Shown one piece after another: positions 41,555 to 58,061 of a stretch of 64,000 nucleotides of DNA. Made by a program: the position numbers and the translations under genes. Below the pieces are notes generated by a model. The model made no database searches, had not been told where the DNA came from, and worked only from the letters and a program-made list of their open reading frames with translations. Source of the DNA: Halobacillus sp. Marseille-P3879 (lineage in GTDB: Bacteria; Bacillota; Bacilli; Bacillales; Halobacillaceae). Numbering within the stretch: the first letter of the stretch is position 1; every line of letters begins with the position of its first letter. The DNA is taken from NCBI RefSeq assembly GCF_900240285.1, contig NZ_OESS01000003.1:434001-498000 (forward strand). Reading direction: 5' to 3'.

Positions 41555-42319
41555 CTATCCTACAATGGTTCTAGTGATTAAAAACAAAACCGAAGGAATG
41601 ATAAGGCACCCGAGCCCGGTGAAAAATGTAGCAGTCATTGCTCCATAAGGGACAAGCTTAGGGTCAGTAGCCGCCAGCCCTCCAGCTACTCCACTGGTCG
41701 TCCCCATTAATCCGCCATAAACTATTGCTGAGCGAGGGTTGTTCAATCCGATATATTTTGCAATGAAGGGTGTGCCTATCATTGTGAGTATAGATTTGAT
41801 CAATCCAGCTGCTATACTTAATGCAATGACTTCTGAGCTTGCCCCAATTGCGGTACCGGTCACAGGTCCTACGATATAAGTTGCAGTCCCCGCACCTATT
41901 GTCGTCAAGCTGACAGCGTCTGTATATCCAAAGGCAAAAGCAATGAAAACACCAACAACAAAAGAAACAATTACACCAGTAAGCAGGGATACGAGACCCG
42001 GCAAGCCAGCTTTTTTAATTTCATCGAGGTTTGCCCCAAAAGCTGTAGCTACTATCGCAAAATCACGAAGCATGCCGCCTCCCATTAATCCTATTCCAGT
42101 AAATATCCCTACATCTGCTAATCCCTGGTCTCCGCCAGTATTGACCCCGCCAATATACGCAAGTAAAAGACCTATAATTATCGCAATGGCTGAACCGTGA
42201 ACTCTCCCTCTTGTAAGTTTATCGGACAAGATATAAGAAAAATAGATGGTAATACCGACCAGGGCAAAAGAAACAATTAAACCGTTATCCGAGAAAGTAT
42301 CACTTAATATTTCGAACAT
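41555..42319 (-). CDS. madM: Malonate transporter subunit MadM
   Basis: A 254-residue membrane protein with about eight or nine helices and glycine-rich motifs (GIGLMGGGMLRD, GAGTATYIVGPVTGTAIG, GGLMGTTSGVAGGLAATDPKL) characteristic of MadM. With MadL it forms a sodium-dependent malonate carrier, first described in Malonomonas rubra. Its start overlaps the madL end by 20 nt, implying translational coupling. The mdc decarboxylase genes next door support malonate as substrate. Confidence 0.85.
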   Translation of the reverse strand: MFEILSDTFSDNGLIVSFALVGITIYFSYILSDKLTRGRVHGSAIAIIIGLLLAYIGGVNTGGDQGLADVGIFTGIGLMGGGMLRDFAIVATAFGANLDEIKKAGLPGLVSLLTGVIVSFVVGVFIAFAFGYTDAVSLTTIGAGTATYIVGPVTGTAIGASSEVIALSIAAGLIKSILTMIGTPFIAKYIGLNNPRSAIVYGGLMGTTSGVAGGLAATDPKLVPYGAMTATFFTGLGCLIIPSVLFLITRTIVG

Positions 42320-42713
42320 TTTCTGTCCCTCCTATTTCTTCTTCAGAAAAAGAAGATGTATCTTTTCCGATGTTACTAAGTAAAGGCACAAGAGCCCAAC
42401 TCACAAAAACGGTAACTACTCCTGCTAATAAAGCAACAGGTCCTCCATCTAAAGCTGCTACTACGTTTTGATTAGCAGCCATAGCTATAACGATAGGAAT
42501 GTACATGGCTCCCCAGAAACCCATTCCTTCCTCTGACTTTATATCTAATTTTTTATTTCTCTTTAAGTAATCAACTAATAACACAAGTATTACCATTGCA
42601 ATGCCAACTCCGCCAACATTGGCTTCAATTCCAATTGCTGCTCCCAATAGTTCACCCAGAATAACTCCAGCTAACATGCAGATTGACAATAACGCAACAC
42701 CATATATGACCAA
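42300..42713 (-). CDS. madL: Malonate transporter subunit MadL
   Basis: A 137-residue membrane protein with four helices and the MadL-typical MVIYGVALLSICMLAGV start and GGVGIAMVILVLL segment. I place the start at TTG 42713, 6 nt from GAGGTG; an upstream extension is not family-like and has no ribosome site. The leader of about 200 nt holds operator 1 of the AGTCG-N5-CGACT set and a cre site. Confidence 0.85.
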   Translation of the reverse strand: MVIYGVALLSICMLAGVILGELLGAAIGIEANVGGVGIAMVILVLLVDYLKRNKKLDIKSEEGMGFWGAMYIPIVIAMAANQNVVAALDGGPVALLAGVVTVFVSWALVPLLSNIGKDTSSFSEEEIGGTENVRNIK

Positions 42714-42896
42714 TTGATTCACCTCATTTTGTTTTTTATATCGCCTTGTGTTCCGAGGACAACGAAAGTCATTGATTGCTACAGAACAAATGGACAAACA
42801 ACAGAAAGATAAAATCAAGTGAAAAGGGCCTGCATACGGACTTAGTTAGCCGGGGGATTGATCAAGATATAATAAAATAAATATCCCTCCTTACTT

Positions 42897-42910
42897 AGAA
42901 AGCGTTTTCA
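42897..42910. promoter_or_regulatory. cre site in the madL upstream region
   Basis: AGAAAGCGTTTTCA differs from the cre consensus only in its first base. It suggests CcpA control of madLM. Confidence 0.5.
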
Positions 42911-42921
42911 ATTCTGCCGAT

Positions 42922-42936
42922 AATCAACTGTCGACT
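42922..42936. promoter_or_regulatory. GntR operator site 1 (madL side)
   Basis: AATCAACTGTCGACT, read on the minus strand AGTCG-ACAGT-TGATT, is the most relaxed of four matches to AGTCG-N5-CGACT in the window. It lies upstream of madL, toward the divergent regulator gene. Confidence 0.65.
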
Positions 42937-43006
42937 GTTTTCATATTCTTCATCTTAGATAATTCTTTTTAGAAATGCAAATACTTTTTTAAATTTTCTA
43001 AATATA

Positions 43007-43035
43007 TTGAATGGTCCAACTATTTATTGTACAAT
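43007..43035 (+). promoter_or_regulatory. Promoter of the GntR regulator gene
   Basis: TTGAAT (43007-43012) and TACAAT (43030-43035) are 17 bp apart. The predicted start point falls in operator site 2, indicating autorepression. Confidence 0.7.
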
Positions 43036-43037
43036 TT

Positions 43038-43052
43038 AATCGACAGTCGACA
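43038..43052. promoter_or_regulatory. GntR operator site 2 (regulator gene)
   Basis: AATCGACAGTCGACA, minus-strand TGTCG-ACTGT-CGATT, matches AGTCG-N5-CGACT with two changes and covers the start point of the regulator gene. Confidence 0.7.
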
Positions 43053-43077
43053 ATTGAGTTTTCTAAGGAGGTCTAGG

Positions 43078-43749
43078 GTGAGCTCAGTAAATCTTAATTA
43101 TAATGCCTTATCTAATCAAATTGCTGAATACATCTCTAAACAAATTATTAGCGGAGGGTTAAAGTCTGGGGAAAAAATTGTTGAAAACGTATATGCTGCA
43201 GATTTTGGTACAAGTCGAGCCCCGGTTCGTGAAGCTATTTACCTCTTAACCATCGAAGGGCTGGTTGAAAGAATTCCAAGAAAAGGTGCCGTTGTAAAAG
43301 AACATACGGAAAATGAAGTATATGATCTCCTTGAGATTAGAATTATGCTTGAATCTCTTGCGATGAATCGAATAAAAGATGGTCAGGTAGACCAAGAGGT
43401 TGTAAAAAAGATGGAAGCATTGTATGAGAAGATGGTTTCAGAAAAAGACATAAAGAGTTATACCGAGCTTAACCATGCTTTTCACTTATGTTTAATTGAA
43501 ATGAGTAGAAGTGAAACCATTGAGAAAATGTATACTCGTTTAGAGCTGCCACTGCTTAGAGTTCAAAATGTTTCTTTTACTGCCGAAGGGAATATTGAAA
43601 AATCAGTTAAAGAACATTTTACTTTAGTCGAACTTCTCAAAGCCGGCAAAGTAGAAGAGGCTGCCACTGTCTTAGAGAGACATAACCAGGATGTAATTAC
43701 GACCATTCAAAAACAGCTGTTTAGCCATAGCAGCGATTCCCAACTTTAA
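43078..43749 (+). CDS. GntR/FCD-family regulator of malonate genes
   Basis: A 223-residue repressor: N-terminal GntR winged helix (about 8-72; GTSRAPVREAIYLLTIEGLVER is the recognition helix region) and a C-terminal FCD effector domain (about 80-210) with ligand-type residues (ELNHAFHLCLIEMS, VKEHFTLVELLKAG). MdcY of Acinetobacter and MatR of rhizobia are GntR-type regulators of malonate genes, so malonate or malonyl-CoA is a likely effector. GTG start at 43078 with AAGGAGG upstream. It lies between madLM and the mdc operon, among three of its predicted operators. Confidence 0.85.
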   Translation: MSSVNLNYNALSNQIAEYISKQIISGGLKSGEKIVENVYAADFGTSRAPVREAIYLLTIEGLVERIPRKGAVVKEHTENEVYDLLEIRIMLESLAMNRIKDGQVDQEVVKKMEALYEKMVSEKDIKSYTELNHAFHLCLIEMSRSETIEKMYTRLELPLLRVQNVSFTAEGNIEKSVKEHFTLVELLKAGKVEEAATVLERHNQDVITTIQKQLFSHSSDSQL

Positions 43750-43782
43750 AAGAAAAAAGGGTGAAAATTCCCTTTTCTTTTT
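43748..43782 (+). terminator. Terminator of the GntR regulator gene
   Basis: AAAGAAAAAAGGG pairs with CCCTTTTCTTTTT just after the stop codon. Confidence 0.7.
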
Positions 43783-43789
43783 AAATAAA

Positions 43790-43818
43790 TTTAGTCGACT
43801 GCCGACTGTTGGTAAATT
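43790..43818 (+). promoter_or_regulatory. Promoter of the mdc operon
   Basis: TTTAGT (43790-43795) and TAAATT (43813-43818) are 17 bp apart, and operator site 3 fills the spacer. The same plan (TTTAGT, operator, CAAATT) stands before the amidase operon on the other strand. Confidence 0.5.
43793..43807. promoter_or_regulatory. GntR operator site 3 (mdc operon)
   Basis: AGTCG-ACTGC-CGACT is a perfect match to the inverted repeat, in the spacer of the predicted mdcH promoter, 35 bp before the mdcH start. Confidence 0.75.
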
Positions 43819-43841
43819 TCATAACAGGAGCGAATATTATA

Positions 43842-44762
43842 ATGTCTACTGTCTTTCTTTTCCCTGGTCAAGGGTCACAAAAGCCTCGCATGTTTCAGGA
43901 TTTACCGGACCACCCAGTTGTAAGGAAAGTATTTGAAGAGGCCAGTGACGAATTAGATGAAAGCGTTTACCAGTGGGATGTAGAATCTAAACTAAGTTCT
44001 ACCATTGCCGTACAGATATGCCTGCTTGTTTCTGGGGTGGCGTCAGCACGAGTGCTAAAGGAGAAAGGAGCTGTGCCGGATTTCGTTGCAGGTCATTCTG
44101 TTGGAACGTTCGGAGCCGCGGTAGTTGCAGGAGCCTTAGAGTTTAAAGATGCAGTCCGATTAGTCCGCATGCGTGGAGAATGGATGGAACAGTCATTCAA
44201 AAAAGGGTATGGGATGGGGGTTGTCACAGGGTTGGGTGAAAGACAATTGAATGGATTGATTGATGAGTATAATCAGAATGAAAGAAATATCTATCTTGCT
44301 AATTTAAATAGTTCTCGACAAATGACAATAGCTGGGTCTCTCCCTGAACTACGCAGGTTTATGGAGATTGCTATTGCGAACCATGCTCAGAAAGCAGAAC
44401 TCTTAGATGTTGCCGTACCGTCCCACTGCTCCTTATTGAATGAGCTGTCTTTAAAGTTAGAGGCAGAGCTTGATCGTCTTTCAGTGAAGAACCCTGAGAT
44501 TCCATACGCCGGTAATCTTAGGGGGCGGGTTTTAAGAAGGGGAGAGGCTATAAAAAAAGATTTAGCGTGGAATGTTTCTCATTCTGTTCATTGGCATGAA
44601 GCAACATCCTTGCTATATGAGCTGGGAGTTCGGTTATTCGTCGAGATGCTTCCTGGAAACGTACTGACGAAATTGGCAGAAGACGCTTTTCCTGAAGCAA
44701 GAGCAATTTCTATCTCAGATGATGGCAGTGATACGGCTGCTATTCTAGTTAATCGATTATAA
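43842..44762 (+). CDS. mdcH: Malonate decarboxylase malonyltransferase MdcH
   Basis: A 306-residue acyltransferase of the FabD fold: FPGQGSQKPRMF at the N-terminus and the nucleophile serine in GHSVG (about residue 87), with PSHCSLL and the basic residue expected in the R/H pair. In this system MdcH loads malonyl onto the acetylated carrier protein to prime the cycle. Start ATG 43842 with AGGAG upstream; the in-frame upstream extension runs into the operator. Having mdcH as first gene is unlike the better-known operons that begin with mdcA. Confidence 0.85.
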   Translation: MSTVFLFPGQGSQKPRMFQDLPDHPVVRKVFEEASDELDESVYQWDVESKLSSTIAVQICLLVSGVASARVLKEKGAVPDFVAGHSVGTFGAAVVAGALEFKDAVRLVRMRGEWMEQSFKKGYGMGVVTGLGERQLNGLIDEYNQNERNIYLANLNSSRQMTIAGSLPELRRFMEIAIANHAQKAELLDVAVPSHCSLLNELSLKLEAELDRLSVKNPEIPYAGNLRGRVLRRGEAIKKDLAWNVSHSVHWHEATSLLYELGVRLFVEMLPGNVLTKLAEDAFPEARAISISDDGSDTAAILVNRL

Positions 44763-44791
44763 ATTCATTAAATGAAAGGGAGAGACAGTAC

Positions 44792-46444
44792 ATGACGATT
44801 AATACCCAAACGAATAACAGTTGGACGACAAGACGAGATGCCAAAACTAAACGAATGAATAAGATTACGCATATTACAGATTCAAGGGTGATTCCAACGG
44901 ATCGAATGGTGGAAGTCTTAGAGGAGCTGCTGCTTCCTGGTGACAGGGTGGTATTAGAAGGGAATAATCAAAAGCAAGCTTCTTTCCTTTCACAATCGCT
45001 CTCACAAGTGAATTCTGCCAAAGTCTATGATTTACATATGGTATTAAGCAGTATCTCAAGACCAGAACACTTGGATATATTTGAATCTGGAATTGCGGAA
45101 AAAGTGGACTTCGCTTATGCAGGGCCCCAAAGTTTAAGAATCGCTCAAATGATTGAAGATAAGGAACTGACTATGGGAGAGATACACACGTACATTGAAC
45201 TTTATGGCCGGCTGTTTATTGATCTAATCCCAACTATTGCGTTGGTAGCAGCAGATAAGGCGGATAGTGACGGTAATTTATATACAGGGGCAAATACAGA
45301 AGAAACACCGACTATTGTAGAGGCCGCAGCTTTTCGTGACGGCATTGTAATTGCACAAGTAAATGAAATTACTGACGACTTACCTCGTGTAGATATACCT
45401 GGGTCATGGGTTGATTTAGTAGTTGAAGCTGATGAACCCTACCAATTAGAACCGCTTTTTACAAGAGACCCGAGACATATTACTGATATACAGGTCCTTC
45501 TGGCAATGATAACAATACGCGGTATCTATGAGAAGCACCAGGTGCAGTCTCTCAATCACGGGGTTGGTTATAATACAGCTGCTATCGAACTCTTACTCCC
45601 TACTTATGGAGAGTCATTAGGATTAAAAGGGAAAATATGCAAGCATTGGGCATTAAACCCCCATCCTACCATGATTCCAGCCATTGAATCCGGATGGGTA
45701 GAAAGCATTCATTGTTTCGGAGGAGAAGTTGGGATGGAAGAGTATACCTCTAGGCGTCCGGATGTTTTTTTTACCGGAAGAGATGGAAGTCTTCGGTCGA
45801 ATCGAACACTTTCCCAACTAGCAGGTCAATATGCTGTGGATTTATTTGTGGGGTCGAGCTTACAGATAGACTCCGTTGGAAATTCATCAACTGTGACAAA
45901 TGGCAGGCTTGCGGGCTTTGGGGGGGCACCGAATATGGGGCATGATCCTGGTGGACGAAGACACTCCACGCCGGCATGGTTAAATATGATGACTTCAGAA
46001 GACCCTCTCGCACGTGGGAAGAAGCTGGTGGTTCAAGTAGTAGAAACCCATCAAATAGGAAATACTCCAGTGTTTGTAGAATCTTTAGATGCTATTGACG
46101 TGAAGAACGAAGCTGATCTGGCTACGGCGCCTGTTATGATCTATGGAGATGATGTCACCCACGTAGTCACTGAGGAAGGGATCGCTTATTTATATAAAGC
46201 CAAAAGTCTGGAAGAACGCCGAGAAGCTTTGGCTGCGATAGCAGGAGTAACACCTGTTGGGGTTCGATACTCTCCCAAGGATATTCAAAAACTTCGGCAA
46301 GAGGGGATTGTTGCATTTCCTGAAGACTTAGGGATTCGGCGGTCTGAAGCCAATCGTTCCTTACTTGCAGCTAAGAACATAGAAGAACTTGTTGAGTGGT
46401 CCGGGGGGCTTTACAACCCGCCTGAAAAGTTTCAAAGCTGGTAA
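44792..46444 (+). CDS. mdcA: Malonate decarboxylase alpha subunit MdcA
   Basis: A 550-residue acyl-carrier-protein transferase that exchanges acetyl for malonyl on MdcC. Family marks include HWALNPHPTMIPAIESGWV, SIHCFGGEVGMEEY, and the C-terminal FGGAPNMGHDPGGRRHSTPAW stretch. It is 29 nt after mdcH with GGGAGAG before the ATG. It is the largest subunit and the most diagnostic gene of the biotin-independent malonate decarboxylase. Confidence 0.92.
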   Translation: MTINTQTNNSWTTRRDAKTKRMNKITHITDSRVIPTDRMVEVLEELLLPGDRVVLEGNNQKQASFLSQSLSQVNSAKVYDLHMVLSSISRPEHLDIFESGIAEKVDFAYAGPQSLRIAQMIEDKELTMGEIHTYIELYGRLFIDLIPTIALVAADKADSDGNLYTGANTEETPTIVEAAAFRDGIVIAQVNEITDDLPRVDIPGSWVDLVVEADEPYQLEPLFTRDPRHITDIQVLLAMITIRGIYEKHQVQSLNHGVGYNTAAIELLLPTYGESLGLKGKICKHWALNPHPTMIPAIESGWVESIHCFGGEVGMEEYTSRRPDVFFTGRDGSLRSNRTLSQLAGQYAVDLFVGSSLQIDSVGNSSTVTNGRLAGFGGAPNMGHDPGGRRHSTPAWLNMMTSEDPLARGKKLVVQVVETHQIGNTPVFVESLDAIDVKNEADLATAPVMIYGDDVTHVVTEEGIAYLYKAKSLEERREALAAIAGVTPVGVRYSPKDIQKLRQEGIVAFPEDLGIRRSEANRSLLAAKNIEELVEWSGGLYNPPEKFQSW

Positions 46445-46460
46445 AGAGGTGAGCAAGCCT

Positions 46461-47330
46461 ATGACATGGAAAAACGCAAGAGAATGTGGGGAAAACCTTA
46501 GTTACTGGGTGGTTCAGGCCTTAATAAACGAAGTGGAGCTTGCTCCTAAACCAGGACTGGTTGACCCAAATGACAGAGGGTCTCATCAAGACATGAATTT
46601 TGAATTAATGGTCCAGTCTGCCCGTTCTCTACAGGAAACATTTAAGTTAATTGCTGAAGTTTCATATAGGCAAGAGCCGAGCCAGCAGCTGCGGGAAGAA
46701 ATAGCAGGCATTGGGAGAGCTGGTGAGAAGAAAATGATGCAGGTTACGGGCGGGATCAATACGCATAAAGGAGCAATATGGGTACTGGGACTTCTAACTT
46801 CCGCTGCAGCTGTCAATCCTCCAGGCGAGGACACCAAACGGCTCGTGCAAACAGCTTCACGGATAGCACGATTTCCAGATCATTACGCTCCCAGTATTCC
46901 CACCCACGGTTCTACCCTTCATGAAAAACTGGGTGTAAAGGGAGCTAGAGGGGAAGCTGAAGCTGGCTACCCAAATCTTATAGAAATCGCCTTGCCTGCA
47001 TTAGATCATTCAAGAAGAAAAGGTATTTCAGAACGCCAAGTGAAGTTGGACACTTTAGTAGCATTGATTGCCTGCTTAGAAGATACATGTATTATTCATC
47101 GAGGAGGATTGCTGGTCTTAGAGTTGGTCCAGGAAAAAGCTGCTCATATCTTACAATGCGGAGGAGTCTCTACTCTGGAAGGATGGAGGGAGCTGGAAGA
47201 ATTAAATCAATTATTTTTAAAATACCACGTCTCCCCTGGAGGAAGTGCTGATTTATTAGCAGCAGCTCTATTTTTGGATCAGTTAAAAAAAGTTCCTTTT
47301 AATGAATCGAAAGGTAAGGTAACTATATAA
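46461..47330 (+). CDS. mdcB: Triphosphoribosyl-dephospho-CoA synthase MdcB
   Basis: A 289-residue CitG/MdcB-family enzyme that makes the prosthetic-group precursor of the carrier protein from ATP and dephospho-CoA. The N-terminal EVELAPKPGLVDPNDRGSHQDM, GGINTHKGAIWVLGLL and SPGGSADLLAAALFL motifs are diagnostic. ATG 46461 has AAGAGGTGAG 7 nt upstream; a longer frame would run into mdcA. Confidence 0.9.
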   Translation: MTWKNARECGENLSYWVVQALINEVELAPKPGLVDPNDRGSHQDMNFELMVQSARSLQETFKLIAEVSYRQEPSQQLREEIAGIGRAGEKKMMQVTGGINTHKGAIWVLGLLTSAAAVNPPGEDTKRLVQTASRIARFPDHYAPSIPTHGSTLHEKLGVKGARGEAEAGYPNLIEIALPALDHSRRKGISERQVKLDTLVALIACLEDTCIIHRGGLLVLELVQEKAAHILQCGGVSTLEGWRELEELNQLFLKYHVSPGGSADLLAAALFLDQLKKVPFNESKGKVTI

Positions 47331-47343
47331 AGGAGGAGTCAGA

Positions 47344-47649
47344 TTGGAATCATTGTTTTTTCAATATCCAGCTAAAAATAAAATAGAACGCCAATCCCAT
47401 GTAGGTGTAGTAGGTTCGGGAGATTTAGAAGTATTAGTTACCCCTTCTGAAGAACCGTGGGTTAAAGTAGAAGTCAGAACAGGTATGACCGGGTTTGAGC
47501 AGACTTGGGAAAAGGTAATCGAAAGGTTCTGTAATTATTATGCAGCACAGGCAACTATACAAGTGAATGACTTTGGGGCTACTCCTGGGGTTGTCTCCCT
47601 GCGGTTGGTTCAAGCTTTGGAGGTGAGTGGTCACCATGAAATCTCTTAA
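47344..47649 (+). CDS. mdcC: Malonate decarboxylase acyl carrier subunit MdcC
   Basis: A 101-residue carrier protein that holds the acyl group on a 2'-(5''-phosphoribosyl)-3'-dephospho-CoA arm. The attachment serine is in VGVVGSGDLEVLV (about residue 27), the usual position. The start is TTG 47344 with AGGAGG upstream. Its 3' end overlaps the start of the beta/gamma fusion gene by 14 nt, suggesting coupled translation. Confidence 0.88.
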   Translation: MESLFFQYPAKNKIERQSHVGVVGSGDLEVLVTPSEEPWVKVEVRTGMTGFEQTWEKVIERFCNYYAAQATIQVNDFGATPGVVSLRLVQALEVSGHHEIS

Positions 47650-49312
47650 AGTGAGTTTTGCAGAATTAAACGCTCGGGAACGTACAAAGGCGTTATTAGA
47701 TGAAGATACGTTTCGCGAGTTACTGGATCCTTTTGAGGGTTTCGAATCCCCTCATTTAGTACGTCAGGGGATTGTCCCTCAAAGCGACGATGGGGTAGTG
47801 ATAGCAAAAGGAAACATTAATGGAGACCCGGCAGTTATTATTTCAATCGAAGGCAGCTTTCAAGGAGGCGGGATTGGAGAGGTTTCAGGCGCAAAGATAG
47901 CCGGAGCCCTTGAGTTAGCTCTTCGTGATAACCAAAATGGGATTCCTACTCGCACAATTATTGTCTATGATACCGGTGGTGTTAGGCTGCAGGAAGCCAA
48001 CTATGGATTGTTAGCTATTGCTGAGATCGGTTCAGCAATTTCTGCGTTAAGAGAATATACACCTGTCATTGGAGTGATACCTGGTAAAATAGGCTGTTTT
48101 GGAGGGATGTCCCTGACAGCAGGGTTATGCAGCACCCTTATCATGACTAAAGAAGGACGGCTTACATTAAATGGACCGGAAGTTATTGAACAAGAAGCTG
48201 GAATCCAGGAATTCGACTCTCAGAATAGACGTTTAATATGGAATACAATTGGTGGTGAACAGCGTTTCTCCCTTGGTTTTGTTGATTATCTCGCAGAAGA
48301 TGACATTGATTCAATAAAAAACATAATTATAGAAAGTACCCGGCGAACGGAGAAGAGCCATTCTCGCAGCGAGCAAGTGCAGCTTTATAGAAACCGCCTA
48401 CAAAAAATAGACCCTTCGTTCCCTTTAAATTCATTAGATTTACAAAGGAAGTGGGAAGAAGCGAGCATTGAAGAAGGGGAAAGATGGATTGAGGAGAATT
48501 CTGACGAAAGCTGCATTGAAAGTAGAGGTAGGACTTGGTTTACAGCTTTAACAACCAAAACCAAAAGTAATCTTACCCCTTCCGTTTTGTGTGCAGATGA
48601 AGAAATCGAAGATGAACGTGTTCGTTATATTTCGGTTGTACCTAATTTGAATAGCCGCTACCACCGTGCCCGCGAAGGAGAAGTGGGACTGGAAGAAGGA
48701 TGGACGATTGCTCACTATGTAAGGGAAGCAATTGAGCAGGATGACGGAGGTGACCGCCGTGCTATTGTAGCGATTGTGGATGTCCCCAGCCAAGCATATG
48801 GATACACTGAGGAATTACTGGGGCTGCATCAGGCAGGAGCAGCGGCAGTAGATGCTTATGCAGCAGCTCGACGTGCAGGTCATCCTGTCGTTACTTTAGT
48901 GGTAGGTAATGCCATTTCGGGAGCATTTCTCACTCATGGGCTTCAGGCTAATCGTATACTTGCTTTAGACGATGAAAAAGTGAACATCCATGTCATGTCA
49001 AAGCAATCCGCCGCTCGCATTACACGTCGTACCGTTCAGGAACTTGAAGAAGCTACTAAAAAAACGCCGGCCATGGCCTATGATGTGTTGTCTTTTTCTA
49101 CTCTTGGTGCTCTTCATGAACTGATTGGAGGAGTGAATGCAAGTAACCCGGAAAGTGAAGATATTAAGTTAATAGAAAGAAAAATAGTAGAATCAATAGA
49201 TAGTGCCAGGTCTGGTCCTTCAGATTTAAGAATCCGACTGCAATCTTTACAGGCAAAAGATAACCGGTCAGCATCGATTAAAGTGAGAGAGAGGCTGGAA
49301 ACCCTATGGTAA
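47636..49312 (+). CDS. mdcDE: Fused malonate decarboxylase beta-gamma subunit
   Basis: A 558-residue fusion of MdcD (about 1-270) and MdcE (about 300-558), which together decarboxylate malonyl-S-carrier. The beta half has FQGGGIGEVSGAKIAGALELAL and GVIPGKIGCFGGMSLTAGL; the gamma half has VDVPSQAYGYTEELLGLHQAG and VVGNAISGAFLTHGLQAN. In the characterised Klebsiella and Pseudomonas systems these are separate polypeptides. There is no internal stop or frameshift and no strong internal ribosome site. ATG 47636 is preferred over GTG 47627, which abuts GGAGGTGA. Confidence 0.9.
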   Translation: MKSLKVSFAELNARERTKALLDEDTFRELLDPFEGFESPHLVRQGIVPQSDDGVVIAKGNINGDPAVIISIEGSFQGGGIGEVSGAKIAGALELALRDNQNGIPTRTIIVYDTGGVRLQEANYGLLAIAEIGSAISALREYTPVIGVIPGKIGCFGGMSLTAGLCSTLIMTKEGRLTLNGPEVIEQEAGIQEFDSQNRRLIWNTIGGEQRFSLGFVDYLAEDDIDSIKNIIIESTRRTEKSHSRSEQVQLYRNRLQKIDPSFPLNSLDLQRKWEEASIEEGERWIEENSDESCIESRGRTWFTALTTKTKSNLTPSVLCADEEIEDERVRYISVVPNLNSRYHRAREGEVGLEEGWTIAHYVREAIEQDDGGDRRAIVAIVDVPSQAYGYTEELLGLHQAGAAAVDAYAAARRAGHPVVTLVVGNAISGAFLTHGLQANRILALDDEKVNIHVMSKQSAARITRRTVQELEEATKKTPAMAYDVLSFSTLGALHELIGGVNASNPESEDIKLIERKIVESIDSARSGPSDLRIRLQSLQAKDNRSASIKVRERLETLW

Positions 49313-49950
49313 TGAATCCTCACGATCTTTTGAAAATAAAAAAAACGACGAAGCTGTCGAGCTCTCCTGAGATTCCTGAATGGGTCACAGAATCATTGCA
49401 AGATGTTCCGTACGTTGTGGTACGGCGTGCTCCAATGTCAGAAGGGATGATACCAATAGGAGTGCGGGGGAAAAAACGTAATCAGCGATTCGGTGCCTAT
49501 ATAGCTGAAGAGGACATCGTTCACTTGATTTCGCCAGTTACGATTTTACAGAAGTACGCCTGGAGGGAAAAAATAAGCAATAGCCCAATGCCTGCGATCA
49601 AGGCATTGGGTCATGTGCATGAAATATTCAAACCTTATAATTTGTTATGGGGGCCCGCGGGAAGTGTAGGGTTTGAGATGGTCAGTAAGTGCCAGACTGT
49701 TACTAAGAGCAGTGATCTGGATGTTGTCGTCTATGCGGATGAAGTTTTATTAATTGAAGTGGTCGAAAACATTGTTAACAAGCTTAATCAACTTTCCGTC
49801 ATGGTTGATGTCCAAATTGAAACTCCGAATGGTTCAGTATCTTTAAGAGAATATGCCCGGGAGAAGGGGCCAATCTTAATGAAAACAATAGATGGGGCAA
49901 AGCTAGTTCATAACCCTTGGGAGCCTGAATTCGTCACAGCCCCATATTAG
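49306..49950 (+). CDS. mdcG: Holo-carrier-protein synthase MdcG
   Basis: A 214-residue phosphoribosyl-dephospho-CoA transferase that attaches the prosthetic group to MdcC. The nucleotidyltransferase motif GPAGSVGFEMVS...SSDLDVVV (about 116-140) holds the paired metal-binding aspartates. It overlaps the fusion gene by 7 nt. With mdcH, A, B, C, DE this is a complete decarboxylase set; MdcG is last. Confidence 0.88.
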   Translation: MVMNPHDLLKIKKTTKLSSSPEIPEWVTESLQDVPYVVVRRAPMSEGMIPIGVRGKKRNQRFGAYIAEEDIVHLISPVTILQKYAWREKISNSPMPAIKALGHVHEIFKPYNLLWGPAGSVGFEMVSKCQTVTKSSDLDVVVYADEVLLIEVVENIVNKLNQLSVMVDVQIETPNGSVSLREYAREKGPILMKTIDGAKLVHNPWEPEFVTAPY

Positions 49951-50045
49951 TAAAAAGTGTCCTGATTTTTCTATGCTTTAAGAACGTATAACTTTGTTAA
50001 AGTCCTTTGACTTCCGCCATGGACTTGACAGTAAGCCAGTTTTTT

Positions 50046-50753
50046 CTAATCCTTTTGTTTTTCTAAATAAAGAATAATAGCTATTGTTATTACAACGCAA
50101 ACGACAATTTTGATTAGACTAAAGATAGGCGAAAACAGAACAATCATACCTACTGCAAGTGCAATTCCCCCATACAATGGAGTTTTATAAGCAAATTGGC
50201 CTAAAACAGCCCCGAATATAGCGGGAAGTACAAAAGCAAATGCATCTTCTACGGCAGGAGGAATGATCGAAAGAATATAGGTCCCGCCTAAAATAATTAA
50301 AACAATAACTACTATATTCACTAAAGAAGCAATTGCGATACCGAATACTCCAGCTAGCTCTGCTTTACGTGACCCACTTTTCGCCCCGATAGCTTTTTGA
50401 GCAGAGACAGAACAGGGAAGACACATGTTTGCTATATTTCCGGTTAAAAACGCTAAATAAGTACCGGCAATTCCGAGAGTAGGGTAATACGTAATGGGCT
50501 CCAGTATCCACATGATTCCAATAAAACCTGCATATCCTACAAGTCCTGTGAAAATGGCTCCCCACCCAGGGTGAGCATCTAAAATAAAAGACATATATAT
50601 AGGCGGGATGAAGCACATTATAATTAATGTGAAGAGTGTTAGACGTCCCCAAAAATGAGCTCTGTTATGGAATATTTCCATGCTGTTTGTTGTTTCTGCT
50701 CCTGCACGACTTACATATTCATCTGGAGTTACCTTTTCCGGGTTAAGACTCAT
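50046..50753 (-). CDS. Polytopic membrane protein next to DUF5058
   Basis: A 235-residue membrane protein with about six helices (near 35-55, 62-82, 90-112, 138-160, 172-192 and 205-230) and a soluble acidic N-terminus. The segment GNIANMCLPCSVSAQKAIGAKSGSRKAE between helices is distinctive and hydrophilic. I do not know a named family. It is last of four genes and 47 nt after the DUF5058 gene; the two may form one transporter. Confidence 0.65.
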   Translation of the reverse strand: MSLNPEKVTPDEYVSRAGAETTNSMEIFHNRAHFWGRLTLFTLIIMCFIPPIYMSFILDAHPGWGAIFTGLVGYAGFIGIMWILEPITYYPTLGIAGTYLAFLTGNIANMCLPCSVSAQKAIGAKSGSRKAELAGVFGIAIASLVNIVVIVLIILGGTYILSIIPPAVEDAFAFVLPAIFGAVLGQFAYKTPLYGGIALAVGMIVLFSPIFSLIKIVVCVVITIAIILYLEKQKD

Positions 50754-50800
50754 CAGATTTCCTCCTTATTTTTCTAATACCTCAGCACATGGTCGGTAAT

Positions 50801-51511
50801 TTAGAAGAGGGTAGTAAAGTAAGCACTTGCCATACCAATTACCATAGCAATCCCTAATGCCCATTCTTTTAACCAGGCAAAGTTTACTTTATCAGCTATA
50901 AGCATGATAAGAACCATCGAAGAAAGAGCAGCAAGACCTGCTATAGTATGAGTAACACTTAAAACCATTTGATCACTTGCCTGGTATCCAAAAGCACCTA
51001 ACATAGCAGCAGAGGAAACAGCAGCCATGATTTTTGGGTTTTTCTTCTCAATTTTCTTCTGTGTATTCCCAAGGGATTTGGTGAAAAAAGCCGTAAAGAG
51101 TAACCACCCCATCCCACCGAGACACATCGTCCAAACGACAGTTGTAAAAGCTGAAATTGAAAAGTTGTCGGAGTTTAATCCCACGCCAAAAGCATTGGCT
51201 CCTATCTCTGCTGCAGCTGATTCAGTTGCTGCAGACCCTATTATTCCTATTCTCATTAATGTTAACGGGGAACCGAGCAAAGCGATTAACGAAACAAGTA
51301 TGATTGCAATCGCAAATGAAGGCCCTATCGAACTAATGAATCCTGTTCTAATAGCAGTTTTTACTTCCTTAGAAGTCATTCCTATACCTGGAGCTGATTT
51401 CTTTGCTATTCTTAAAAACACGATCGCTTGAAACATAACGATCCCAACGAAAATAAAAGCCATAATCCATAAAGGAGCACTATTTGCTATGTTCATTGTC
51501 TCGTTACTCAA
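50801..51511 (-). CDS. DUF5058-family membrane protein
   Basis: A 236-residue protein with about six helices. The pattern PLWIMAFIFVGIVMFQAIVF, VKTAIRTGFISSIGPSFAIAI and the MRIGIIGSAATESAAAEIGA stretch match DUF5058, which in Firmicutes tends to stand next to M20 amidohydrolases. Function is unknown. Here it is between the M20 gene and a second membrane protein, so a two-component carrier for the hydrolase substrate is the simplest hypothesis. Confidence 0.7.
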   Translation of the reverse strand: MSNETMNIANSAPLWIMAFIFVGIVMFQAIVFLRIAKKSAPGIGMTSKEVKTAIRTGFISSIGPSFAIAIILVSLIALLGSPLTLMRIGIIGSAATESAAAEIGANAFGVGLNSDNFSISAFTTVVWTMCLGGMGWLLFTAFFTKSLGNTQKKIEKKNPKIMAAVSSAAMLGAFGYQASDQMVLSVTHTIAGLAALSSMVLIMLIADKVNFAWLKEWALGIAMVIGMASAYFTTLF

Positions 51512-51555
51512 ATTAAGTTCCCCCTTGATTCAGTCTAATTGATAATTCAACTTAC

Positions 51556-52770
51556 TTATTTCGTCGATTGCTTTTCTTTAGCGAAGTGGTCTTCTTTAGC
51601 CGATAAGTAGTCAAATACAGTAGAGATAAATAATTTACCAATATACATCATCGCTTCTTCCTGAACATTGAACTTCGGGTGGTGGTGAGGATATACCTTA
51701 CTTTCTTCGTCTAAAGCACCTCCGACCCAGAAGAAGCTTCCTGGAATTTCTTTTAAATAATAAGCAAAGTCTTCCATGCCCATTTGTGGAGGCATTTCCT
51801 GCACCATATCTTCACCGAATAAGTTAGAAGCTGTCTTTCTTACTCTTTCCGTTTCTCCTGGATGGTTTACCACTGCTGGGTAGCCGCGTACATAATTGTA
51901 ATTAACGCCAGCGCCGAATCCTTCACATGTAGATTCTGCTATTTTTCCGATTGACTTTTCTACCCAATCGCGAACCTCTTCATCAAACGTTCTTGCAGTT
52001 CCTTTAATTTTTACCTTGTCAGGGATGACGTTATAACCTTCGCCTCCATTAAAAGAGGCTACGGTAACAACAGCGGATTTTAACGGGTCGATTTGTCGGC
52101 TTACGATTTGCTGCAAATTAAGCATTAACTGGCTGCCCACAATGAGAGGATCAATTCCTAAGTGAGGTGTAGCTGCGTGGGTCCCTTTCCCGGAAATTTC
52201 TATTTCGAAAGTGTCTCCATTGGCCATAACTTGTCCTTCTTTGAGGCCCACTGTTCCAAGAGGTTCTATAGAACTTACATGAGCTCCGTATACTACATCT
52301 ACTCCATCGAGGCACCCATCTTCTATCATGAATTTAGCCCCGCCGGGAATCACTTCTTCTGCAAATTGGTGGATAAATACGATAGTTCCTTCCAGCTCAT
52401 CCAGGTTCTCACTGAGCACTTTTGCTACTCCTAGTAATCCAGCGGTGTGAAGATCATGACCGCAAGCATGCATAACACCTGGTACACGTGATTTGTACTC
52501 TACATCTTTTTCATCCTGGATAGGAAGAGCATCAAAATCTGCCCGTAAAGCCACTGTCTTGCCAGGTTTATGACCTTTTAAAATACCCACTACTCCACGA
52601 CCGCCTACTTCTGTTTTTACCTCCAATCCCAACGAGGATAAGAATTCTGCTATTTTCTTTGGTGTGTGTACTTCTTTGTGTGAAAGTTCCGGATTCATGT
52701 GGAGATCTCTTCTAAAGTCTACTAACTCTGGATAAATTTCTTCCAACCTAGTAAATAATTTTTCTTTCAT
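51556..52770 (-). CDS. M20-family amidohydrolase
   Basis: A 404-residue metal-dependent amidohydrolase (M20D type) that removes an acyl group from amide nitrogen. Metal-ligand residues C103 and H105 (HACGHD), the catalytic Glu in HQFAEEVIPGG (about 136), and the C-terminal MPPQMGMEDFAYYL are present; the lid domain (about 180-290) includes GTHAATPHLGIDPL. Family members act on N-acyl amino acids, such as hippurate or acetyl-diaminopimelate. Placed between an amidase and two membrane proteins under a malonate-type operator, an N-malonyl substrate is suggested. Confidence 0.8.
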   Translation of the reverse strand: MKEKLFTRLEEIYPELVDFRRDLHMNPELSHKEVHTPKKIAEFLSSLGLEVKTEVGGRGVVGILKGHKPGKTVALRADFDALPIQDEKDVEYKSRVPGVMHACGHDLHTAGLLGVAKVLSENLDELEGTIVFIHQFAEEVIPGGAKFMIEDGCLDGVDVVYGAHVSSIEPLGTVGLKEGQVMANGDTFEIEISGKGTHAATPHLGIDPLIVGSQLMLNLQQIVSRQIDPLKSAVVTVASFNGGEGYNVIPDKVKIKGTARTFDEEVRDWVEKSIGKIAESTCEGFGAGVNYNYVRGYPAVVNHPGETERVRKTASNLFGEDMVQEMPPQMGMEDFAYYLKEIPGSFFWVGGALDEESKVYPHHHPKFNVQEEAMMYIGKLFISTVFDYLSAKEDHFAKEKQSTK

Positions 52771-52811
52771 TAATAACTACTCCCATCTATTAAAGTTGAT
52801 TAAAACGACGA

Positions 52812-54254
52812 TCAGTCAGAAATTTGGGACTCATGTAAACCTGAAATTTTTGGGCGTTTATCTCCATGTTTTGTCGCTTGTTCAAATAAATAACCGATCT
52901 GCAGGACATTATAATCTGCTCGGTGAGGTCCTACTATCTGGAGACCGATCGGCAGCCCATCCGACGTAAAGCCGCCTGGTATTGATAAAGCCGGATTACC
53001 CAAAGCAGAAATGTAATAGCTTGAACGCATCCAATCAATATAGTTTTCCATTCGTACCCCATTAATTTGGTGAGGGGCTTCCTGGTCAACTTCAAAAGGC
53101 GGCACCTGGCTCACGGGGAGAATAAGGGCATCATACTGCTGGAAGAAAACTCTCATTCTATGATACAGCTCATTCCGTAACCTTTCTGCTCTTCCAATAT
53201 CTACTCCTCGTAGTTCACGCCCTTTATTAAAGTTCCATATAAAGCTTGGCTTCATAACTTCCTGATAACGTTCAAACAATTCCTTATGTGACATTTCAAA
53301 TTCCCATGCTCTAAATATATGGAAGACTTCATCCGCCTCTGACAACTCAGGAGAAGCTTCTTCAACCTGACACCCTAAATCCGAGAAAACTTTCATCTGT
53401 TCTTCGATATTGCTGCGGATTTCAGAATCTATAGGAAAAGCTCCCCCTAAATCTGCTGACCAGGCAATTCGAAGGTCATTTGCTTTTCTTGAAAATGGGC
53501 GAAGAAATTGTTCGCCGGATTCTTCGATTGAGATTGGCGATCGGCTATCAGGCCCTGACATAACAGACATCATAAAGGCAGCGTCTTCCACATTTCTTGA
53601 GATCGGTCCCTGAGTTGCAAGTGGAGAAAACAATGCAGGCTTAGGATAGGTTGGTACGCGGCCAGGGGAGGTTCTCATTCCAACAACATTATTGAAAGCA
53701 GCAGGAAATCGGCAAGATCCGCCCATATCACTTCCGTCCGCAAAAGGAAGCATTCCACAAGTTACGGCGACAGCCGCTCCACCACTGCTTCCACCTGCAG
53801 TACGATTAAGGTCATAAGGGTTTCTTGTAACGCCAAACACTTCATTAAACGTATGGGCTCCTGCCCCAAATTCTGGGACGTTCGTCTTTCCGATCACAAT
53901 TGCTCCTGCTTTTCTTAATCGTTCCACCAGGAGGTCATCTTCGGTAGAAATGTTATCTTTTAAGGCAAGGGATCCACTCGTCATCGGAAACCCCCTGGCG
54001 TTATGTGTGTCTTTGATTGCTATCGGTAACCCGTGAAACGGACCTGTTTTTTTACCTGAAGCCAGAGCCTTATCTGCTTTGTCTGCTTCAATTAATGCTT
54101 GTTCATCATTTAGTGAAACGATCGCATTGACTTTTGGATTCACTCTTTCTATCTGTTTAAGGTGGGCTTCCATAACTTCCCGAGCCGATACTTCTCTTGA
54201 TTGAATCGATTTAGCGAGATCACGTGCGGTAGAGTAACACTTATTTTCATTCAT
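52812..54254 (-). CDS. Amidase (amidase-signature family)
   Basis: A 480-residue amidase with the Ser-Ser-Lys triad K81 (AIKDTH), S157 (TAGGSSGGAA) and S180 (GSDMGGSCRFPAA). It hydrolyses C-N amide bonds; the family includes malonamidase, ureidomalonase and GatA, but there are no gatB or gatC neighbours, and GatA-specific context is absent. First gene of the amidase-M20-DUF5058-membrane operon, 43 nt after operator site 4. Malonamide-like or ureidomalonate-like substrates would fit the regulon. The ribosome site is GAAAAGG. Confidence 0.8.
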   Translation of the reverse strand: MNENKCYSTARDLAKSIQSREVSAREVMEAHLKQIERVNPKVNAIVSLNDEQALIEADKADKALASGKKTGPFHGLPIAIKDTHNARGFPMTSGSLALKDNISTEDDLLVERLRKAGAIVIGKTNVPEFGAGAHTFNEVFGVTRNPYDLNRTAGGSSGGAAVAVTCGMLPFADGSDMGGSCRFPAAFNNVVGMRTSPGRVPTYPKPALFSPLATQGPISRNVEDAAFMMSVMSGPDSRSPISIEESGEQFLRPFSRKANDLRIAWSADLGGAFPIDSEIRSNIEEQMKVFSDLGCQVEEASPELSEADEVFHIFRAWEFEMSHKELFERYQEVMKPSFIWNFNKGRELRGVDIGRAERLRNELYHRMRVFFQQYDALILPVSQVPPFEVDQEAPHQINGVRMENYIDWMRSSYYISALGNPALSIPGGFTSDGLPIGLQIVGPHRADYNVLQIGYLFEQATKHGDKRPKISGLHESQISD

Positions 54255-54296
54255 ACCTTTTCAACCCCTCATAGATAGAATTTACAATTTGTGGAT

Positions 54297-54311
54297 AGTC
54301 GTTTGTCGACT
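54297..54311. promoter_or_regulatory. GntR operator site 4 (amidase operon)
   Basis: AGTCG-TTTGT-CGACT is a perfect inverted repeat identical in both arms to site 3. On the minus strand it sits in TTTAGT-17-CAAATT, the same promoter plan as mdcH. The rest of the gap to 54704 is AT-rich and shows nothing else I can support. Confidence 0.75.
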
Positions 54312-55047: not shown

Positions 55048-56301
55048 TTATAAATCGTCCGCAAGTCGAAATCCGCTGAATGCCCATCTCATATGAGGAT
55101 AGAAAAAGTTTCGATAGGTAAGGCGGATATGAGATTGAGGAGTGACACAAGATCCGCCTTTAAGTACGATCTGATTCGCCATAAACTTCGCATTGTACTC
55201 ACCAAGTGAACCGTCTAGAGGCTTGTTTCTGGGATAAGGAACATAAGGACTCTGTGTCCATTCCCAGACGTCTCCAAACGCTTTATGAAAAGTTTCGTTG
55301 GTACTGTATTGGGAATGCGGCTGATAAAAATCGTCTTCCATAAAGTGCCCTTCTATTAAATGGCCCTCAAGGGCATGTTCCCATTCTTGTTCAGTAGGCA
55401 GCCGCTTCCCAGCCCAGCGTGCATAAGCATCAGCCTCATAAAAACTTACATGACTTACAGGGGCGTGGGGGTCAATTTTTTGCAGTCCGCTCAACGTATA
55501 GACGTACCATTCATTTTCTCTCTTCATCCAGTACTGTGGATGGACCCAATTCTCTTCATTTACTTTCTGCCAGCCATCGGACAGCCAATAGTCGGGAGTT
55601 TCGTAACCATCAGCGTTAATGAAATCTATGAACTCTCCGTTTGTTACTGGTCGGTTGGCCAGTTGGTAAGGAGCTAAATACGTTTTATGACGAGGTCCTT
55701 CATTGTCAAAACAGAACCCTTCTCCAGAGTGGCCGACCTCTACCAGTCCTCCGTCGATCTCATAGAAGGATAGTTCGGGTGTATGGGAAGATGGTTCATA
55801 ATTGTTATCACGGAACACTGGATGAAGAGGGTTAAATGAAAAATTGTATTTTATGTCCATTAAGATAAGCTCCTGATGCTGTTGTTCATGCTGTAATCCA
55901 ATTTCTACAAGCTCTTGAAGTTCTTCATTATCACTCTTTTCATCCAGCAATTGAGACATATGTTCGTCAACATAATGGCGGTATGAATACGTTTCTTCGA
56001 CTGTCGGCCGCGTGATCAGTCCGCGTCTGGCTTGAGGGTGAGGGGTGCCGACAGTTTCGTAATAAGAATTGAATAAGTATAGAAATTCATTATTAAAGTG
56101 TACGTAGTGGGGGAGAAAGGCTTCCAAAATGAATTTCTCAAAAAACCATGTAGTATGGGCTAAATGCCATTTCGCAGGGCTTACGTGGGTAGCGGCCTGT
56201 ACAACAAAATCTTCTGTTTCCAAATTTGAAACTAGTTTTTCGGTATATTCCCTTATATTCTGATATTCTTTCTGAACTTCTTTATCCTTGGTTAGTGGCA
56301 T
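55048..56301 (-). CDS. egtB: EgtB-like sulfoxide synthase (ergothioneine pathway)
   Basis: A 417-residue non-haem iron enzyme that joins a thiol (gamma-glutamylcysteine or cysteine) to hercynine. N-terminal DinB-type domain (about 12-160) includes the iron-ligand motif HEQQHQE (about 138-144) and a first histidine in SPAKWHLAHTTWFFE; the C-terminal FGE/sulfatase-modifying domain (about 185-415) has GPRHKTYLAPYQLANRPVTNGE and RLTYRNFFYPHMRWAFSGFRLA. The partner egtD methyltransferase is not in the window, so the pathway cannot be confirmed. Single gene. Confidence 0.8.
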   Translation of the reverse strand: MPLTKDKEVQKEYQNIREYTEKLVSNLETEDFVVQAATHVSPAKWHLAHTTWFFEKFILEAFLPHYVHFNNEFLYLFNSYYETVGTPHPQARRGLITRPTVEETYSYRHYVDEHMSQLLDEKSDNEELQELVEIGLQHEQQHQELILMDIKYNFSFNPLHPVFRDNNYEPSSHTPELSFYEIDGGLVEVGHSGEGFCFDNEGPRHKTYLAPYQLANRPVTNGEFIDFINADGYETPDYWLSDGWQKVNEENWVHPQYWMKRENEWYVYTLSGLQKIDPHAPVSHVSFYEADAYARWAGKRLPTEQEWEHALEGHLIEGHFMEDDFYQPHSQYSTNETFHKAFGDVWEWTQSPYVPYPRNKPLDGSLGEYNAKFMANQIVLKGGSCVTPQSHIRLTYRNFFYPHMRWAFSGFRLADDL

Positions 56302-56476
56302 ACTTTCACTCCAATTATTCCAGTTTTAAATTTCCGAGGAACCAGTCTGCTAAACGTCTATAAAGGGGCATACTCCCTCCATAAATGGGCTGTAACTATG
56401 TATTTCCCTGTAATGCATGGAATTAATCAAGGTATTTTAAAGAAATTGGCCTCCCAAAGAAGATAACTTCGTTGGC

Positions 56477-56584
56477 TTATGCGGCCAGTATGGTCTTCTC
56501 ATCGAATAGCTGCAGCCTCACAAAGGTATCATCAGAATCTGAAATAGATATTTCCATGTTAATAGAAACTTTCGCAGCTTTCAC
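56477..56584 (-). CDS. Possible 35-residue protein downstream of the carbamoylase
   Basis: A short GTG frame begins 12 nt after the upstream stop, with GAGGA as a possible ribosome site. It encodes MKAAKVSINMEISISDSDDT and an LQLFDEKT stretch, plausible beta strands. No family. Nothing else is seen in 56302-56476. Confidence 0.35.
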   Translation of the reverse strand: MKAAKVSINMEISISDSDDTFVRLQLFDEKTILAA

Positions 56585-56596
56585 AGTAATTCTTCC

Positions 56597-57835
56597 TCAT
56601 TTAGACTGGGCAATTCTGACGGCAGTTTGATAGAGCAGCTCAGTACCTTTTTGGATATCTTCGATTTCAGCAAATTCTAACGGATTATGGCTGATTCCTT
56701 TTTCGCACCTGACAAATATCATTCCATAGTCGCAAATATAAGACATAAACAACGCGTCATGAAACGGGCCGCTCATTAAAGTGGGAGAATTCAAACCAAG
56801 TTTTTCATCTTCTTCTTTCATAATTTCTTTAATCCAATCAGCACAGTAGCGAGGATCACTGCGGGTATCTTCATTCAGTGAGTACGTAAGATTAAGCTCG
56901 GAACATGTCTTCTCAATAATTTCATAGAGCTTCTTTTCTAACCTTGTTCTGGCATCTGTGTCGATATCTCTTAAATCAATGGTGAATTCTACTTTCTCAG
57001 GAATGATGTTTCTTGAGTTAGGGAAGTTTTGCAGGCTTCCAACTGTTCCTACCGTGTTTTTCGATCCTTCCTTTTTAACTAGCTCATTAAATTCCTTTAT
57101 GATAGAGGAGGCTCCAACAAGAGCGTCTTGTCTTAAGCTCATCGGCACTGATCCTGCGTGGCCGGCAAAGCCTTCTACCGTAACAGTCAGCCAGAGAGGC
57201 CCTGCAATGGCAGAAACGATGCCTACAGGTTTGCCGAGATCTTCAAGCACTGGACCCTGCTCGATATGTAATTCTAGGAAGGCTTCGATGTCTTCAGGCT
57301 GGTAAACTGGGCTTTTAGTTATATCAGGGGTTACGCCAAATTCTTTTAAAGCCTCTAAGCGGCTGACGCCATCCTTATCCTTCCGCTCTAGTTCTCCTTC
57401 TTCTAACTGTCCAATTAAGGCACGGACGCCGAATACGCCTTTGTTGAACCGAGCTCCTTCTTCATCTGCAAAACAGACCACTTCTATTGTCCGGTTAGGG
57501 ACAATTCCATTATCTTTTAAGCTATGTACCACCTCAATACCGCCCAGAGCGCCGGCGGTTCCATCAAACCGGCCACCGTAGGGCTGAGAATCAATATGAG
57601 AGCCAAGCATAAGGATAGGTTTATCCGGTTCTTTACCCGTTAATCTACCAATTAAATTCCCGAAACAATCGATGCGCGTTTCTAATCCAGCTTCCTCCAT
57701 CCATTCTTTGACAAGGTCGACTCCTTGACGGTCTTCCTTAGAATGAGCTAAACGACGTACTCCTGTTTCACCAATTTTTCCGATAGTGGCTAACGTGTTA
57801 ATATGTTTTTCCAGTCTTTCCCCGTCTATTACCAT
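56597..57835 (-). CDS. N-carbamoyl-L-amino-acid hydrolase / allantoate amidohydrolase family
   Basis: A 412-residue M20-type hydrolase that cleaves carbamoyl or ureido groups. The metal-site motifs MLGSHIDSQPYGGRFDGTAGALGGIE (about 78-103) and FADEEGARF (about 127-135), and the substrate-side LELHIEQGPVLEDLG and AGHAGSVPM are all of the AllC/HyuC group. ATG 57835 is preferred; the ATG at 57841 touches the ribosome site GGAGG. No hydantoinase or allantoinase gene is adjacent; an AtoE-type transporter gene lies upstream on the same strand. Confidence 0.85.
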   Translation of the reverse strand: MVIDGERLEKHINTLATIGKIGETGVRRLAHSKEDRQGVDLVKEWMEEAGLETRIDCFGNLIGRLTGKEPDKPILMLGSHIDSQPYGGRFDGTAGALGGIEVVHSLKDNGIVPNRTIEVVCFADEEGARFNKGVFGVRALIGQLEEGELERKDKDGVSRLEALKEFGVTPDITKSPVYQPEDIEAFLELHIEQGPVLEDLGKPVGIVSAIAGPLWLTVTVEGFAGHAGSVPMSLRQDALVGASSIIKEFNELVKKEGSKNTVGTVGSLQNFPNSRNIIPEKVEFTIDLRDIDTDARTRLEKKLYEIIEKTCSELNLTYSLNEDTRSDPRYCADWIKEIMKEEDEKLGLNSPTLMSGPFHDALFMSYICDYGMIFVRCEKGISHNPLEFAEIEDIQKGTELLYQTAVRIAQSK

Positions 57836-58061
57836 TGCCATCCTCCTCGTTCTAGTTTTTTCAATATAACAAGTATGCTAGTGGTGAACAATGTACATAA
57901 TGAAATTTTTGAAAATATTTTGTATATTTAGTCTATTGTTGTTGGTCCATTAAATCAAGGGTGGAAAACAGGACAATGGAAGGACAAGAGGGGGACAATA
58001 GCTGAGCAGCTTTTATTTCTTACTGGTGTACTATTTTCCTCCATGACCTATCAGGTCTTGA

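Follow-up and report, generated by a model that had tools for sequence, protein, structure and literature searches.

MdcY of Acinetobacter, an FCD-type regulator of the GntR/FadR subfamily, controls malonate decarboxylase genes. In rhizobia, GntR-type control by MatR covers matABC, which serve malonate uptake and its breakdown via malonyl-coenzyme A (malonyl-CoA) through the enzymes MatA and MatB. Malonamidase E2 of Bradyrhizobium is an amidase-signature enzyme tied to malonate. MdcY has been placed among groups with a GT-AC distance of 2 nt (PMC4494728), and an MleR regulon of the LysR family has been named for malonate utilization in lactic acid bacteria (PMC3616900). The present analysis concerns a 64,000-nt stretch of Halobacillus sp. 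Marseille-P3879 (contig NZ_OESS01000003.1, positions 434,001 to 498,000), called the window below, from a genome of 4.17 Mb (G000; G028 is of the same genus). It contains a GntR/FCD regulator gene, malonate transporter and malonate decarboxylase (mdc) genes, and an operon for an amidase, an M20 amidohydrolase, a DUF5058 protein and a further membrane protein. The sequence-only reading of this stretch had proposed that the amidase genes are regulated together with the malonate genes, and comparison of related genomes supports this. A regulon in which one GntR/FCD regulator would act through four operators on madLM, gntR, mdc and the amidase operon is well supported by these comparisons.

A malonate locus with four operators

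The sequence-only reading had placed the inverted repeat AGTCG-N5-CGACT at positions 42922, 43038, 43793 and 54297. A site is present at all four, but the repeat in this form is exact only at 43793 and 54297 (the only exact copies in the whole genome, where 22 more places have one mismatch); the copies at 42922 (AATCAACTGTCGACT) and 43038 (AATCGACAGTCGACA) have two mismatches each. With up to two mismatches the form matches 15 times in the window against 14.7 expected, so sites 42922 and 43038 carry no statistical weight when written this way. A better description of the operator is the 15-bp palindrome AGTCGACWGTCGACT. With up to three mismatches, the fuller palindrome AGTCGACnGTCGACT has six matches in the window against 1.27 expected, a number reached in none of 100 shuffles; two of the six lie outside the four sites, at 43045 (overlapping operator 2) and at 45788. 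GTCGAC, palindromic by itself, occurs twice at a spacing of 7 bp, so that the operator is at once an inverted and a direct repeat; this doubled hexamer carries the GT...AC core expected of the FCD (FadR) subfamily.

A symmetrised weight matrix was trained on 42 sites adjoining the regulator gene. They came from 17 of 18 other loci, with L112 contributing no site; of 33 stretches, 6 had no site with at least 11 of 14 matches. The window, L037, L039, L040 and all amidase sites were kept out of the training, and L113, L116 and L117 were also unused. Across the 64-kb window the matrix ranks 43038 (21.9), 43793 (20.8), 42922 (20.5) and 54297 (17.1) highest, with the next score at 11.7. In L037, L039 and L040 the amidase site likewise ranks fourth, behind three sites of the mdc locus. 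Scores of at least 17 arise in 100 Mb of third-order Markov sequence at 0.66 per Mb, or 2e-4 per 300 bp, and the corresponding value for a score of 12 is 3e-3 per 300 bp. The best score in 461 kb of real sequence, taken as 37 stretches off the regulator locus, is 14.3; it came from one of 13 short G000 pieces that had been chosen for a one-mismatch match. The four sites are real and jointly not a product of chance.

Operator 1 (42922..42936, plus strand) lies on the madL side and operator 2 (43038..43052, plus) 2 bp past the -10 element of the gntR promoter. Operator 3 (AGTCGACTGCCGACT; 43793..43807, plus) precedes mdcH, and operator 4 (54297..54311, minus; AGTCGACAAACGACT on the amidase strand) stands 42 bp upstream of the amidase start. 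Operator 3 forms a conserved block across 13 aligned mdcH leaders, one of them from the window: GTCGAC-N3-CGAC is kept while the flanks drift. The operators of four aligned amidase leaders are not in register, and their positions were compared instead.

The gntR promoter, TTGAAT-17-TACAAT (43007..43035, plus), was found by promoter scan and by comparison of regions: a TTGA-type -35 and a TACAAT/TATAAT-type -10 precede operator 2 in 17 of 18 other regions, L118 being the exception. It is the single well-supported promoter at the four sites. A promoter plan claimed earlier to be shared by operators 3 and 4 (TTTAGT, a 17-bp spacer, then TAAATT or CAAATT) is indeed spelled in the window, but the mdcH leaders of 12 relatives do not keep it, and it was rejected: TTTAGT is partly the operator itself, the downstream hexamer is unconserved and neither copy passes the promoter scan. 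Beside operator 1, in the madL leader, a match to what we take to be the cre consensus (42897..42911, minus) suggests catabolite repression of malonate uptake through CcpA. Among 19 regions separating gntR from the divergent gene, 12 contain a match to this consensus; the whole 64-kb window contains seven. A hairpin resembling an intrinsic terminator lies between gntR and operator 3 (43755..43776, plus).

The genes under these sites have recognizable families. On the minus strand lie madM (41555..42319; TIGR00808) and madL (42300..42818; TIGR00807), for two malonate transporter subunits. The regulator gene (43078..43749, plus, with a GTG start of our choosing) encodes a protein of the GntR/FCD type, as had been supposed, with a GntR winged helix (PF00392, 6.3e-16, residues 11-73) and an FCD domain (PF07729, 2e-20, residues 83-203). 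Its best NCBIfam match, phnR_burk (TIGR03338), reaches 104.6 bits, below the cut-off of 271.5. In a sequence alignment of nine orthologs N132, H136, H180 and H202 are invariant, and may correspond to the FCD metal-site pattern of Asp/Asn and three His. The operon mdcH-A-B-C-DE-G follows (43842..49950, plus; TIGR01110, TIGR03130-TIGR03135), with mdcA, B, C, the fused D-E and G above the NCBIfam cut-off and mdcH slightly below it (296.6 against 297.9 bits). By these matches the full set of subunit and cofactor genes predicted for a biotin-independent malonate decarboxylase is present.

The amidase operon, convergent to mdc and read leftward from 54254, comprises four minus-strand genes. They encode an amidase-signature enzyme (52812..54254; PF01425, NF005686), an M20 amidohydrolase of the aminoacylase type (51556..52770; PF01546, TIGR01891), the DUF5058 membrane protein (50801..51511; PF16481) and a 235-aa membrane protein (50046..50753), which has no NCBIfam or Pfam match at E 0.001 and is paired with DUF5058 by adjacency. 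The two membrane genes are also neighbours in every one of 23 further DUF5058 loci examined, and their products likely form a two-part membrane complex. Upstream of the operon, at 55048-57841, an EgtB-family (ergothioneine) gene and a carbamoylase-type gene were observed; in L039 and L047 the membrane gene paired with DUF5058 is followed by a homolog of the carbamoylase-type gene.

Conservation of the regulator and its sites

Among 44 genomes of the family, a search with the regulator (E at most 1e-20) matched 11, nine of them closely (59-100% identity). The other two are paralogs (L045, 35%; L046, 34%), rejected as malonate loci since no mdc genes are found there. The nine genomes with a close regulator are the same nine in which mdcA exceeds its cut-off; eight more have weak mdcA matches far below it. 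All nine family loci, window included, share one layout: madLM and mdcH flank the regulator gene, the interval from madL to gntR holds operators 1 and 2, and operator 3 precedes mdcH. The L041 copy of operator 3 is weaker (10 of 14 matches).

Beyond the family, the regulator was found in 14 more of 397 genomes of the order (E at most 1e-60), and in Pseudalkalibacillus decolorationis (L052) and Brevibacillus massiliensis (L055). Of these 16 loci, 15 have an operator adjoining the regulator gene, and L112 (best score 8.1 in its 20 kb) is the exception. Since the majority of the sites were also in the training set, their scores do not count as independent of the matrix. Five of the 11 mdc loci beyond the family have a site before mdcH (L052, L056/L108, L059/L110, L107 and L111). 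By the matrix there is none before mdcH in L055, L109, L114 or L115, and none shows in L113; in L112 mdcH comes after madM. In three loci that show no site before mdcH (L109:3227, L113:5833, L114:8709), an operator-like site of 16.7-16.9 bits was observed within the gene, each time about 689 bp past the start; it may reflect a coding constraint. Two further candidates, an Acinetobacter locus with an FCD gene (L061) and L062, were rejected because neither has malonate genes.

In L052 the promoter facing gntR bears operators 1 and 2, and an M20 gene (67% identical) is found there in place of madLM. After this M20 gene come genes for an M42-like peptidase and an MFS-like transporter, both named by eye; the segment L052:5895-9571 stands under malonate operators.

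Five genomes of the order (L116-L120) have no mdcA match (positive controls G000 and G412) and carry the regulator (53-58% identity) next to genes for a class III CoA-transferase and a crotonase-fold protein, with operators between or before these genes. Their transporters are MadLM in L116 and L118 and a TRAP DctP protein in L119 and L120; none was identified for L117. The crotonase-fold proteins were compared with 3-hydroxypropionyl-CoA dehydratase at two aligned positions that we take to be its catalytic glutamates; all five proteins have Val or Ile at the second, and two have Val at the first. With these positions replaced, the proteins are probably not hydratases. The pair is predicted from sequence to comprise a malonate CoA-transferase and a malonyl-CoA decarboxylase, an alternative malonate route. 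In four of the five loci an operator of 14.7-20.5 bits was also observed right where the CoA-transferase gene ends (L116:7477, L117:12588, L118:12977, L119:7678). The one in L116 apparently lies between convergent open reading frames (ORFs) and is maybe an auxiliary operator; in L119 another gene comes after it.

The amidase operon and competing explanations

DUF5058 occurs in eight of the 44 family genomes. A close amidase-M20-DUF5058-membrane operon is found in five of these (G000, G024, G028, G030 and G040), every one mdc-positive. In the other three, G027, G029 and G042, there is just a distant DUF5058 pair (46-51%), and mdcA is absent. The chance of five operons all falling among nine of 44 genomes is 1.2e-4, calculated by hand and ignoring kinship. 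Four of the five operons are linked to mdc, after madM in L037 and L039, and convergent after mdcG in the window and L040. Conservation of the motif before orthologous operons had been set as the test of common regulation. All four linked operons, in two gene orders, have an operator 35-89 bp before the amidase (scores 17.1, 12.0, 15.0 and 17.1), the 15-mer being identical in the window and L040. Two operons unlinked to mdc, that of G040 (L047) and a more distant one in G174 (L152), a genome with no mdcA above the cut-off, have none (amidase-upstream scores -4.5 and -0.8). Nor is there an operator before eight M20 genes away from mdc, of 32 M20 places, where the best score is 4.2.

The explanation that we favour, at a probability of roughly 0.8, is as follows. 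The regulator would bind a palindrome like AGTCGACWGTCGACT at the four places and repress four transcription units: madLM for uptake, gntR itself, mdcHABC(DE)G for conversion of malonate to acetate and CO2, and the amidase-M20-DUF5058-membrane operon. At operator 2 the observed geometry, 2 bp past the -10 of gntR, suggests that a bound dimer would block polymerase. Malonate or its direct derivative malonyl-CoA would release the regulator, and through the cre-like site beside operator 1 uptake would also be under catabolite repression. The amidase operon most likely serves to import amide-linked compounds and hydrolyse them to malonate, which the same regulon would consume. The top solved relatives of the amidase (aryl acylamidase and GatA) and of the M20 protein (M20 peptidases and aminoacylases) fix neither substrate by homology. 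The logic of the regulon favours release of malonate from amides, such as malonamate or N-malonyl compounds, to feed mdc.

Several observations weigh against this explanation. Site 4 by itself is not significant genome-wide: about 2.8 sites scoring at least 17 are expected in 4.17 Mb, and an equally strong one (17.0) precedes der. The amidase site of L037 is weak, at 12.0. The unlinked operon of G040 has no site before its amidase, so that co-regulation is not obligatory; it adjoins a different FCD-type GntR gene, and its neighbours, named by eye, are a class III CoA-transferase, an HMG-CoA-lyase-like gene and a symporter. (A 14.7-bit match in G040 lies 4.9 kb away, within a symporter-like ORF.) The expectation that the motif would occur only before mad/mdc and amidase operons found no support in bare counts over 18 genomes. 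RGTCGACnGTCGACY, with up to two mismatches, has 11-16 places in the nine with a close regulator against 8-14 in the nine without; these ranges overlap, so bare counts are not diagnostic of the regulon, and position and clustering alone are. The M20 gene of L052 need not be an ortholog, since the order has many M20 relatives with 56-74% identity (a match at E at most 1e-150 occurs in 29 of 397 genomes, the window's own included).

It could be argued on these grounds that the amidase site is a chance palindrome near a true three-site mdc regulon and that the amidase operon is controlled otherwise. The expected number of strong sites per genome, the one before der and the siteless ortholog in G040 all speak for this. 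The pattern RTCGACWRNYGAY, composed after the four sites had been seen and so as to include them, occurs at seven distinct places in the genome, four of which are the operators; read in reverse, it matches 8 times on one strand and 9 times on the other. The remaining three places are the der site and two (5.2 and 14.2) inside ORFs that appear argJ-like and pxpC-like by eye, without a database match. Before der, however, the site is absent in six of six relatives, a negative control, whereas sites of 12-17 bits, expected at only 3e-3 to 2e-4 per 300 bp, stand before the amidase in all four linked genomes and in two gene orders. A chance origin therefore seems improbable.

The chief rival, somewhat short of even odds in our estimate, accepts control of all four units by the regulator but holds that the amidase operon serves to recover nitrogen or amino acids from N-acyl or N-carbamoyl substrates and is merely co-induced. 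The nearest relatives of the two enzymes, general aminoacylases for the M20 protein and aryl acylamidase and GatA for the amidase, agree with such a role. So do the related M20-DUF5058 modules that include a carbamoylase-type gene (L039, L047, L150, L151) and those without a link to mdc (L150-L155), two of whose genomes (G081, G067) have no mdcA match. Such salvage is harder to reconcile with the restriction of the family's close amidase operons to mdc-positive genomes (five of five), and with L052, where an M20 gene is tied to the same operator. A much less probable role for the amidase is that of a ureidomalonase. Oxidative pyrimidine breakdown proceeds from uracil through barbiturate and ureidomalonate to malonate and urea, and an amidase-signature enzyme would be suitable for the last step and would yield malonate. 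The cyanuric acid hydrolase/barbiturase family PF09663 has no match in four operon-bearing genomes searched, but none in 14 control genomes either, so its absence is not proven.

A wider proposal, which we put forward tentatively and hold to be rather doubtful as a whole, is a modular malonate network. The amidase and M20 enzymes, with DUF5058 and its partner as a new two-part transporter, would take up malonyl-amides and cleave them to malonate. N-malonyl amino acids, one example of such compounds, are made by plants. In other Bacillales the same regulator and operator would govern a class III malonate CoA-transferase and a crotonase-fold malonyl-CoA decarboxylase, with a MadLM or TRAP transporter and without mdcA.

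Relation to described systems

The analysis proposes an operator for a Bacillales malonate regulator, and the system belongs to a known type, the GntR-controlled malonate regulon. It would tie the DUF5058 module and its amidase to malonate, leaving a short list of testable substrates, and the operator also hints that genomes without malonate decarboxylase may have a CoA-dependent malonate route. A literature search of titles and abstract openings, covering few subscription journals, gave no description of this operator or regulon among the matches listed, and a search for DUF5058, again with few subscription journals, gave no paper mentioning it. One study takes malonate decarboxylase and malonamidase as background, and the portion considered here describes no such regulon (PMC3652848).

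Like MdcY, compared here by its description, the regulator is an FCD-type GntR protein probably set over mdc genes, with a GT-N2-AC core in its operator. It differs in that the operator is a 15-bp palindrome with GTCGAC twice 7 bp apart, as opposed to the single core described, and in that the proposed regulon takes in an amidase operon. MatR resembles it in GntR-type control of malonate uptake and breakdown, but MatA, MatB and the transporter differ from the proteins found here. The L116-L120 clusters resemble the MatR system in probably passing through CoA, again with different protein families. Malonamidase E2 shares its signature with the amidase of the window, for which a link to malonate is proposed here, but it is not named among the 36 solved relatives of that amidase at E at most 1e-30.

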